Source of the DNA: Rhodocyclaceae bacterium
GTDB lineage: Bacteria; Pseudomonadota; Gammaproteobacteria; Burkholderiales; Rhodocyclaceae
Length of the DNA stretch: 64,000 nucleotides
Direction: 5' to 3'
Assembly (NCBI GenBank): GCA_019455325.1
Contig: JACFMQ010000011.1
Location: 48,597 to 112,596 of the forward strand
Part shown: one piece after another, positions 21,186 through 23,592 of the stretch
Position numbering within the stretch: the first letter of the stretch is position 1
How the letters are laid out: every line of letters starts with the position of its first letter
The notes under the pieces: model-generated
What the model saw: the letters and a program-made list of their open reading frames with translations, nothing else
Told to the model about the DNA's origin: nothing
Databases searched by the model: none
Translations under genes and position numbers: made by a program

Positions 21186-22561
21186 TGCGTGCGGCCTCGC
21201 TGACGCTCCGGCTGACGGCGCTGTTCGCGCTGCTCTCGGCGGCCGTGCTGCTCGTCCTCGGCCTGGTCGTCGGCCGGCTGGTCGAGCAGCACTTCGAGGA
21301 CCTCGACATGGACGTGCTGCGCGGCAAGGAGCGGCTGGTCCGCCACGCGCTGGCGGCGACGGCGGGCGACGGCGCACAGGCGCTGCCGCGGCGGCTCGCC
21401 GACGCGCTGGTCGGGCACGAGGACCTGTCGCTGGCGGTTTTCCGCGGCGACGGCACGCCGCTCTTCGCCGCCGGCGCCGCCGACTTCCCGGCGGCGCTGC
21501 TCGCCTCGCCGCGATCCGCGGCGCCGACGCCGGCCATCTGGGAGAACGCCGACGGCCGGCGCTTCCGCGGCTTCGCCGTCGCGGTCGCGGCCGACGGCGG
21601 CGAGCGCTTCGTCGTCGCCGCGGCCATCGACCTCGCGCACCACGAGCACTTCACGCGCGCCTTCCTGGCGACGCTGTGGGGCGTCGTCCTGCTCGCCACC
21701 GTGGTCAGCGGCTTCCTCGGCTGGCTGGCCGTGCGCCGCGGCCTGGCGCCGCTGCAGCGGATGCGCCGCGACGCCTCGGCGGTGACGGCGAACCGGCTCG
21801 ATTTCCGGCTCGCCGCCGACGCCGTGCCGGTCGAGTTGGCGCAGCTCGCCGGCACGCTCAACGAAATGCTGGCGCGGCTGGAGGATTCCTTCCGCCGCCT
21901 CTCCGACTTCTCGTCGGACATCGCGCACGAGCTGCGCACGCCGGTCAGCAACCTGCTCACGCAGACGCAGGTGACGCTGTCGCGGCCGCGCGCGGATGAG
22001 GCGTACCGCGAGGTGCTGGCCTCCAACGCCGAGGAGCTGGAGCGCATGGCGCGCATGATCTCGGACATGCTCTTCCTGGCCAAGGCGGAAAACGGGCTGA
22101 TCGTGCCGGAGCGGCAGGCGGTCGACCTGGCGCGCGAGATGCGCGAGCTGTTCGATTTCTACGAGGCGGTGGCCGAGGAAAAGGCGGTGTCGCTGACGCT
22201 CTTTGGCGAGGGCGCGGCGCGGGGCGACCGCCTGATGCTGCGCCGGGCCTTCAGCAACCTGCTCTCGAACGCCATCCGCCACGCGCCGCCGGGCGGCCGC
22301 GTCGTCGTGCGCATCGCCGCCGCCGACGGCGGCAGGGTCGGTCTGAGCGTCGAGAACTCCGGCGAACCGATTGCCGAGGCGCACCGGGCGCGCCTGTTCG
22401 ACCGCTTCTACCGCGCCGACGCCTCCCGCCGCCGCAGCGGCGAGGAGGCCGGCCTCGGCCTGGCCATCACCCGCTCCATCCTCGTTGCCCACGGCGGCGA
22501 CATCGGCGTGTCCTGCGGCGAAGGGACGAACGTCTTCACGCTCCACCTGCCGGCCGCCTGA
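21185..22561 (+). CDS. cusS: CusS-like heavy-metal sensor histidine kinase
   Basis: This 458-aa kinase has two membrane segments (about 11-32 and 160-182) flanking a periplasmic sensor of about 125 residues, then a HAMP linker, the dimerisation helix SDFSSDIAHELRTPVSNL (phospho-acceptor H248) and an ATPase domain with N-box NLLSNAIRHAPPGG, a G-box around GEEAGLGLAI and FDRFYRAD. The length and RTPVSNL motif match the CusS/CopS heavy-metal family. The start ATG overlaps the cusR stop. It converges on ssrA, with only about 35 bp between its stop and the ssrA hairpin. Confidence 0.94.
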   Translation: MRAASLTLRLTALFALLSAAVLLVLGLVVGRLVEQHFEDLDMDVLRGKERLVRHALAATAGDGAQALPRRLADALVGHEDLSLAVFRGDGTPLFAAGAADFPAALLASPRSAAPTPAIWENADGRRFRGFAVAVAADGGERFVVAAAIDLAHHEHFTRAFLATLWGVVLLATVVSGFLGWLAVRRGLAPLQRMRRDASAVTANRLDFRLAADAVPVELAQLAGTLNEMLARLEDSFRRLSDFSSDIAHELRTPVSNLLTQTQVTLSRPRADEAYREVLASNAEELERMARMISDMLFLAKAENGLIVPERQAVDLAREMRELFDFYEAVAEEKAVSLTLFGEGAARGDRLMLRRAFSNLLSNAIRHAPPGGRVVVRIAAADGGRVGLSVENSGEPIAEAHRARLFDRFYRADASRRRSGEEAGLGLAITRSILVAHGGDIGVSCGEGTNVFTLHLPAA

Positions 22562-22595: not shown

Positions 22596-22613
22596 CGGGG
22601 GCCGAAGCCCCCG
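22596..22613 (-). terminator. GC-rich hairpin ending ssrA
   Basis: A perfect 7-bp stem CGGGGGC / GCCCCCG closes a TTCG loop on the minus strand and is followed by the weakly T-rich TCGTCATTTCC. It comes right after the tmRNA pseudoknot, so it is the likely 3' stem or terminator of the coding piece. On the plus strand it would face cusS read-through, but there is no T-run on that side. Confidence 0.6.
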
Positions 22614-22845
22614 CCGATAGCCATTCTGTTTATCGGACGGCTATGTCCTCAGCAGGCCTTAAGCGGCCATTGCGAAACGCTCATCGTTGGCGTTTGTGGA
22701 TTTGCGCGGATTACGTCCGTCGCCTTTCGGGCCGCCTGCTCGCCTTCTTTCGCCCTGTCGAGACCAGATCACCCCCCCTGTGGTGGAGGTGGGCGGAATC
22801 GAACCGCCGTCCAGAACGCTTCCGGGTTGCCGGAATTACGACCGT
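22596..22845 (-). ncRNA. ssrA: tmRNA, circularly permuted two-piece form
   Basis: On the minus strand the 3' tRNA-like half comes first. From about 22845 it has a hairpin (TTCCGG/CCGGAA), then CGTTCTG (P2 strand, 22818-22812), a T-arm GGCGG-TTCGATT-CCGCC and CACCTCC-ACCA ending at 22781. Only CAGG (22780-22777) separates this from the 5' half, which starts GGGGGTGATCTGG at 22776. The halves pair: GGGGGTG with CACCTCC gives a 7-bp acceptor stem with G3-U70, the alanine identity pair, and CAGGGCG (22757-22751) pairs with CGTTCTG. The tag reading frame runs 22691-22659 and encodes ANDERFAMAA then TAA. A pseudoknot follows: GGAC/GTCC (22648-22645 with 22638-22635) and ATAGCC/GGCTAT (22644-22639 with 22622-22617). 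The function is rescue of stalled ribosomes with SmpB. The RNA ends are approximate. Confidence 0.95.
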
Positions 22846-22851
22846 ACCGCC

Positions 22852-22880
22852 ATTATGGGGGCGCCCCCGGCGGATTTCAA
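22852..22880 (-). promoter_or_regulatory. Sigma-70 promoter of ssrA
   Basis: On the minus strand TTGAAA (22880-22875) and CATAAT (22857-22852) are separated by exactly 17 nt, a strong housekeeping promoter. It lies between the ubiG stop (22894) and the tRNA-like half of ssrA. The expected start is about 22845, which gives an acceptor piece of about 65 nt. Confidence 0.75.
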
Positions 22881-22893
22881 CCGCGCCGACGAA

Positions 22894-23592
22894 TCACGCG
22901 CCGCGCACGGCGTGCACCAGGTAGTTGACGTCGGTGTCGCGGCCCAGCGAATAGCTCTGCGCGAACGGGTTGTAGCTCATGCCGATCACCTCGTCGAGCT
23001 CCAGCCCGACGCTTTTCGCCCAGCGCGCCAATTCCGAAGGTTTGATGAACTTCGCATAGTCGTGGGTGCCCTTCGGCAGCAGGCGGAGCACGTATTCGGC
23101 GCCGATCACCGCCAGCAGGTAGGCCTTGGGATTGCGGTTGATCGTCGAGAAGAAGACGTGGCCGCCGGGCTTCACCAGCGCGGCGCAGGAAGCGATCGTG
23201 CTCGCCGGGTTGGGCACGTGTTCGAGCATTTCCAGGCAGGTGACGACGTCGTAAGCGCCGGCTTCCTCGTCCGCCAGCGCCTCGGCCGAGGTGTGGCGGT
23301 AGTCGACGCTGCGGCCGCTTTCGAGCAGGTGCAGGCGGGCGACGCCGAGCGCCTTCTCGGAGAGGTCGATGCCGGTGACGGTGGCGCCGCGGCCGGCCAT
23401 GCCCTCGGCCAGCAGCCCGCCGCCGCAGCCGACGTCGAGCACCTTCTTGCCGGCGAGGCCGACATGGCGGTCGATCCAGTCGAGGCGCAGCGGGTTGATT
23501 TCGTGCAGCGGCCGGAACTCGCTCTTCGGGTCCCACCAGCGGTGGGCGAGGTCGCTGAATTTTTGCAGTTCGGTCGGGTCGGCGTTGATCAT
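22894..23592 (-). CDS. ubiG: UbiG, ubiquinone biosynthesis O-methyltransferase
   Basis: UbiG (232 aa) makes both O-methylations of the ubiquinone ring using SAM. The class I methyltransferase motif [16 protein letters not shown] (about 60-75) and the family-specific opening [33 protein letters not shown] are plain, as are [12 protein letters not shown] and FFSTINRN. Length is normal. It lies downstream of the OmpA-like gene, but the two are separated by a terminator, so it probably has its own promoter. Confidence 0.97.

Follow-up and report, generated by a model that had tools for sequence, protein, structure and literature searches.

How can a tmRNA whose two parts are encoded in reverse order be matured when only four nucleotides lie between them? 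This question is raised by a locus in the window, i.e., the whole stretch of 64,000 nucleotides analysed here, for which the initial annotation described a circularly permuted, two-piece tmRNA gene between cusS and ubiG. The spacer that separates the encoded ACCA from the new 5' end was regarded there as unusual, its removal being likened to the precise cutting of almost nothing.

Permuted tmRNAs are a known family, as described in PMC11915505, PMC3985003, and PMC9004378; the gene form itself is already known and not new, and these sequences are likely to be in the 2025 tmRNA database already. By the count of PMC11915505, 11,946 entries of a tmRNA database holding 97,179 sequences are permuted. 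The cutting of permuted tmRNA precursors is mostly assumed from tRNA processing, and the removal of a very short spacer at the acceptor tip of permuted tRNAs is given as an open question in PMC3978253. Neither short spacers nor two size classes are described in the literature searched, which includes PMC11915505 and has a scope outside which Sharkady and Williams 2004, Mao 2009, and Keiler 2000 fall.

Identity of the gene

The locus carries a tmRNA gene in circularly permuted form and belongs to the betaproteobacterial type already known (RF01850). The RF01850 model is matched over model positions 1-331 of 331 by window positions 22893-22590 on the minus strand, with 223.7 bits against a cut-off of 84 (E 5.9e-71), and RF04321 is matched by 22843-22659 on the same strand (158.9 bits against a cut-off of 47, E 9.1e-32). 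ARAGORN returns a tmRNA* call with the tag ANDERFAMAA, so that both computational checks proposed at the outset, covariance models and ARAGORN, find the gene at a locus that standard ORF-based annotation had been expected to leave empty. A chance resemblance to tmRNA is ruled out by the E value of the RF01850 match. In contrast, when the whole stretch is folded freely it has only a slight advantage over shuffled sequences (z -1.84; 7 of 200 shuffles as good), and the case for a tmRNA gene is therefore made by the covariance models and not by folding energy.

Read on the minus strand and parsed, the locus presents in order the T-arm, CACCTCC, ACCA, CAGG, GGGGGTG, P2, the tag, a pseudoknot, and a hairpin (Table 1). 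The acceptor stem has 7 of 7 pairs between CACCTCC and GGGGGTG, P2 is paired too, and the tag frame closes with a small/hydrophobic end and a stop (ANDERFAMAA-TAA), as expected for permuted tmRNA. The initial annotation was right in placing the tRNA-like 3' half ahead of the tag-coding half, on which sequence, parse, and RF01850 agree, as well as in the 4-nt CAGG and in all checked sequence details of the acceptor stem, P2, T-arm, ANDERFAMAA-stop, and H-type pseudoknot. The promoter was absent from it; the scan returns one TTGAAA-17-CATAAT, whereas 50 shuffles give 0.1 on average. A terminator scan of the locus did not report the GGGGGC-TTCG-GCCCCC hairpin. Judged by its sequence, the gene is an ordinary RF01850 member.

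Table 1. Features of the permuted tmRNA locus, in window positions.
Feature	Position	Strand	Basis
Sigma-70-like promoter, TTGAAA-N17-CATAAT	22852..22880	-	Pattern scan; inside RF01850 match
Acceptor RNA (tRNA-like 3' piece), ~65 nt	22781..22846	-	RF01850/RF04321 alignments; 5' end inferred from -10 box
T-arm, GGCGG TTCGATT CCGCC	22792..22808	-	Sequence reading and parse
Acceptor stem 3' strand CACCTCC (22791-22785) with encoded A73 and CCA (ACCA, 22784-22781)	22781..22791	-	Sequence reading and parse
Intervening sequence CAGG, 4 nt, for removal	22777..22780	-	Sequence reading and parse
Coding RNA (mRNA-like 5' piece), ~180 nt	22597..22776	-	RF01850 alignment; 3' end inferred at hairpin
Acceptor stem 5' strand GGGGGTG	22770..22776	-	Sequence reading and parse; RNase P site proposed on its 5' side, inferred
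Tag frame ANDERFAMAA-TAA with GCC as resume codon	22659..22691	-	ARAGORN and RF01850
H-type pseudoknot, GGAC/GTCC and ATAGCC/GGCTAT	22617..22648	-	By eye; outer helix in RF01850 consensus
Hairpin GGGGGC-TTCG-GCCCCC, terminator-like without T run	22597..22612	-	Last RF01850 helix

Uniqueness in the genome and distribution

The genome to which the window belongs (4,462,596 bases, 31 contigs, completeness 100) contains a single RF01850 hit over cut-off and one SmpB (197.2 bits). The best match to RF00023, the standard one-piece tmRNA, in the whole genome reaches 35.9 bits against a cut-off of 47 and lies at the permuted locus itself. A standard ssrA elsewhere, named beforehand, with the permuted locus silent, as one of two observations that would speak against the reading, is thus ruled out by the absence of an RF00023 match over cut-off and by the single RF01850 hit. 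At the level of sequence, the reading as a permuted tmRNA gene of the two-piece type is supported.

Among the seven genomes of the genus, that of the window included, the permuted tmRNA can be found in six and a standard one in none. Standard ssrA over cut-off is likewise absent from a same-genus genome in a single contig (G006, 99% complete), while another (G001, 90% complete) has neither form over cut-off. Tag and spacer are retained in same-genus genomes. In the 55 family genomes covered by both model searches, permuted tmRNA over cut-off is present in 25 and standard tmRNA in 27, with both in one (G018) and neither in four. G018 is a MAG with a short-spacer permuted tmRNA (L042) together with a standard one (196.9 bits); mixed bins are possible.

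Two classes of spacer length

In a family survey of 395 genomes, 163 of which have a permuted gene over cut-off, match length among the best 149 of these 163 falls into two groups, 38 genes at 184-188 and 111 at 204-229, and no gene has an intermediate value. After merging of duplicates, 105 distinct sequences were parsed with a scan pattern that permitted intermediate lengths (L048 from G031 and L052 were unparsed, and L005 was removed as a false parse), and the spacer has 3, 4, or 6 nt in 14 of them and 23-49 nt in the other 91. A short spacer is thus a minority but recurrent state in permuted tmRNA genes; the description of it as unusual holds for its frequency, but not against a class of 38 genes in the best 149 of 163. 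The same 38 genes rule out that a 4-nt spacer is unique to the window gene. The long-spacer subtype with a sealed acceptor has at least 23 nt and a spacer 3' end pairing to positions 73-76, and the 4-nt spacer of the window gene lies outside it.

Spacers of 4 nt can be found in all six members of the genus that have the gene, as CAGG in five and CGAC in one. Besides CAGG, the short spacers read CTGA, CTGC, CTGG, CTAC, CTAT, CGAC, CTCGAC, and TGC. The 3-nt TGC occurs in L055 and L090, the latter labelled Hydrogenophaga aromaticivorans and having a very long branch and an imperfect T-stem. A short-spacer tmRNA of the betaproteobacterial type is also found under a Mycobacteriaceae label (L129), where it is probably misbinned; both L090 and L129 have long branches, and decay or misbinning may account for them.

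Short spacers also occur outside the family. In another Burkholderiales family, L221 (G636, 1459-1783) reads ACCA-TCGAC with a 5-nt spacer. The single-contig genome G636 carries this permuted tmRNA (RF01850, 104.1 bits) alongside one of the standard form (RF00023, 225.6 bits). Of 29 loci taken from the phylum's other classes, 27 were parsed (L226 and L227 unparsed), one of which (L231, about 1501-1693) has a 5-nt spacer with encoded ACCA (ACCA-ATTAT) and the other 26 have spacers of 22-115 nt. The alpha model RF01849 was matched by L231 and by all nine other loci compared with it. Among all sequences parsed, none has a spacer of 7-21 nt.

Encoded CCA and sealing by the spacer

CCA is not always encoded in tmRNA genes, as stated in PMC11915505. 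All 14 distinct sequences with a short spacer encode it, versus 11 of 91 with a long one, counts which, like those of pairing, overstate independence because the sequences are related; Fisher tests on the spacer traits take related sequences as independent and are descriptive, and the link between short spacer and CCA has p 0.5 over no more than three independent contrasts on well-supported branches, too few for a meaningful test.

Of the 80 long-spacer sequences without CCA, 75 show pairing between the final four bases of the spacer and three or more of positions 73-76, and 44 show it at all four positions. Over the 91 long spacers, position 76 pairs with -4 in 75, with four kinds of pair and a maximum of 54 in 1000 shuffles. 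Sealing is often incomplete, since 74 and -2 are unpaired in 37 of the 91. The long-spacer sequences with CCA are fully paired in one case only out of 11, and 13 of the 14 distinct short spacers are without pairing beyond the acceptor stem. Six long spacers keeping ACCA (L057, L078, L088, L118, L133, and L201) end in CTGA, CTGC, CTGAA-like, or similar letters, and these ends, which stand next to an internal hairpin, resemble the short CTGA and CTGC, hinting that short spacers may have originated by hairpin loss.

Neighbours and history of the locus

The location between cusS and ubiG given in the initial annotation is correct, with a CusS-type kinase gene ending at 22561 on the plus strand and the ubiG stop at 22894 on the minus strand; a cus-type two-component pair adjoins the tmRNA on the side opposite ubiG. 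In the family, the eight standard ssrA loci fetched all have, in the 1.5-kb flank, ubiG together with a gene for a gph-like HAD phosphatase, and over all 30 standard loci ubiG is present in 19 and the phosphatase in 22, the name of the latter being loose (best equivalog 222.1 bits against a cut-off of 359). Directly upstream of permuted genes, the phosphatase can be found in 8 of 42 with a short and 4 of 103 with a long spacer, and ubiG in one with a short spacer (that of the window) versus four with a long one, most of the remaining permuted genes having other neighbours or neighbours unreadable in short flanks. In same-genus genomes the phosphatase gene separates ubiG from ssrA; it is missing at the window locus and in the 64 kb. 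As ubiG and phosphatase neighbours are common to standard and permuted loci, permutation probably happened where ssrA already stood.

The loss of CCA looks derived, because CCA is encoded at 24 or more of the 30 standard loci (these 24 were parsed with a CCA-demanding pattern, and the other six carry no information on CCA absence). A quick tmRNA tree, from which nine rows were left out as too short, has six changes of spacer class, at least three of them forced by starred branches, and gathers 32 short rows in a single, weakly supported group. An AU test with three long-branch rows left out does not reject a single short-spacer clade (p 0.175). With the alpha-type L231 also having a short spacer, more than one origin of the short class is likely overall, when alpha and beta types are taken together.

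Proposed maturation and its alternatives

With a probability of roughly three in four, the window gene is the functional ssrA of its genome, giving one precursor that would become, by a single RNase P cut and 3' trimming, a two-piece tmRNA able to rescue ribosomes. From the gene, we infer the following RNA steps, enzymes, and function in the cell. Transcription from the sigma-70 promoter would yield a single precursor with the tRNA-like 3' part first and the tag-coding part second, the two being linked by the 8-nt loop ACCA-CAGG, which closes the acceptor stem at its tip. A cut by RNase P just before G1, the first base of the coding part, would produce two RNAs in one step, namely a coding RNA of ~180 nt whose 5' end is mature and an acceptor RNA of ~65 nt ending in ...ACCACAGG. 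CAGG would then be trimmed to the encoded CCA by a 3' exonuclease, for which RNase PH is the best candidate found, and since trimming would stop there, both RNase Z and CCA addition would be unnecessary. An encoded CCA usually blocks RNase Z. Held together by the acceptor stem and P2 pairing, the two pieces would be charged with alanine and, with SmpB, would rescue stalled ribosomes and add AANDERFAMAA.

One cut with trimming appears the simplest route because CCA is encoded, RNase PH is present in the genome (379.4 bits), and none of the 395 family genomes reaches the cut-off of the RNase Z model TIGR02651, as judged with this one strict-cut-off model, which has weaker matches in 387 (240-268 bits in seven, the next being 116, and in the genome of the window no better than a match of E 7e-8). 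RNase D is below cut-off there (36.5 bits against 298.95). The two precise cuts implied by the cutting of almost nothing would not be required, as with an encoded CCA one RNase P cut and 3' trimming would be sufficient.

How the spacer letters suit RNase P can be considered from PMC9433436, according to which C(-4) and A(-2) favour the E. coli enzyme, a leader paired to the 3' RCCA is cut more slowly, and G(-2)G(-1) is the slowest dinucleotide, with a 13-fold lower kcat/Km. Among distinct short spacers with 4 nt or more, all 12 have C at -4, versus 13 of 91 long ones; this C is present in L221 and absent in L231; position -2 is G and not the favoured A in 10 of 14 short spacers. The window spacer itself ends with G(-2)G(-1), and in the predicted fold CC pairs with GG inside the loop. 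Such features, of which the GG end is unfavourable for the E. coli enzyme according to PMC9433436, would suit a functional two-piece tmRNA whose loop is opened first by another endonuclease (e.g., RNase E or RNase G), RNase P trimming the 5' side and the short loop being a relic meaningless for the order of steps. This order of events is unlikely, as the loop available to such a nuclease would have 8 nt and is G/C-rich, and as the 13 of 14 distinct short spacers without extra pairing leave an open single-stranded leader available to RNase P.

Considerably less probable is maturation by the two endonucleases RNase P and tRNase Z, although it is the general proposal for two-piece tmRNA in a review (PMC3985003), since the window gene encodes CCA and the matches in the family to the one RNase Z model used stay below its cut-off. 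The least credible reading is a dead or unprocessed relic, either a one-piece permuted RNA or a pseudogene, given that this is the sole tmRNA over cut-off in a complete genome where SmpB is present, that promoter, tag, and acceptor stem are intact, and that same-genus genomes keep tag and spacer.

A broader view, which we hold tentatively and would put close to but short of an even chance, is that permuted tmRNAs are of two mechanical kinds with a forbidden range of spacer lengths between them, the tight-loop kind having more than one origin, across beta- and alpha-type genes. A tight loop of 3-6 nt would leave CCA open and need one RNase P cut and an exonuclease, without RNase Z or CCA addition. 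In the long kind, a spacer hairpin would seal the CCA position by pairing, CCA being mostly lost, and opening and trimming would be followed by finishing by the CCA-adding enzyme.

Comparison with known systems

The window gene shares with RF01850 (beta_tmRNA) the gene order, promoter position, P2, T-arm, tag frame, pseudoknot, and final hairpin. It differs at the spacer, where the alignment hides 25 consensus positions versus one in the window gene, and in its encoded CCA, which 80 of 91 distinct long-spacer relatives do not encode. Short-spacer relatives (Ca. Accumulibacter, a Sulfuritalea-labelled MAG, and Dechloromonas sp. H13) have, like the window gene, a spacer of 3-6 nt and an encoded ACCA, but with different spacer letters. 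The alphaproteobacterial permuted tmRNA (RF01849) follows the same principle, although its T-arm and coding part differ, and among 27 parsed loci L231 alone combines a short spacer with ACCA, the 26 other spacers having 22-115 nt.

The bacterial class with short spacer and CCA, which includes the isolate Dechloromonas sp. H13, offers a simple substrate from which RNase P alone should give both pieces. Together with the sealed long class, with which it shares the ubiG-side locus in some genomes, it provides a natural experiment on RNase P and paired 3' ends. A likeness is also seen in permuted tRNA genes such as that of tRNA-Tyr in Thermofilum pendens, in which, according to PMC3978253, the acceptor ends are joined by a 1-nt spacer and CCA is encoded; that gene is archaeal, and its pieces are ligated elsewhere to a one-piece tRNA, whereas the pieces of tmRNA stay separate.
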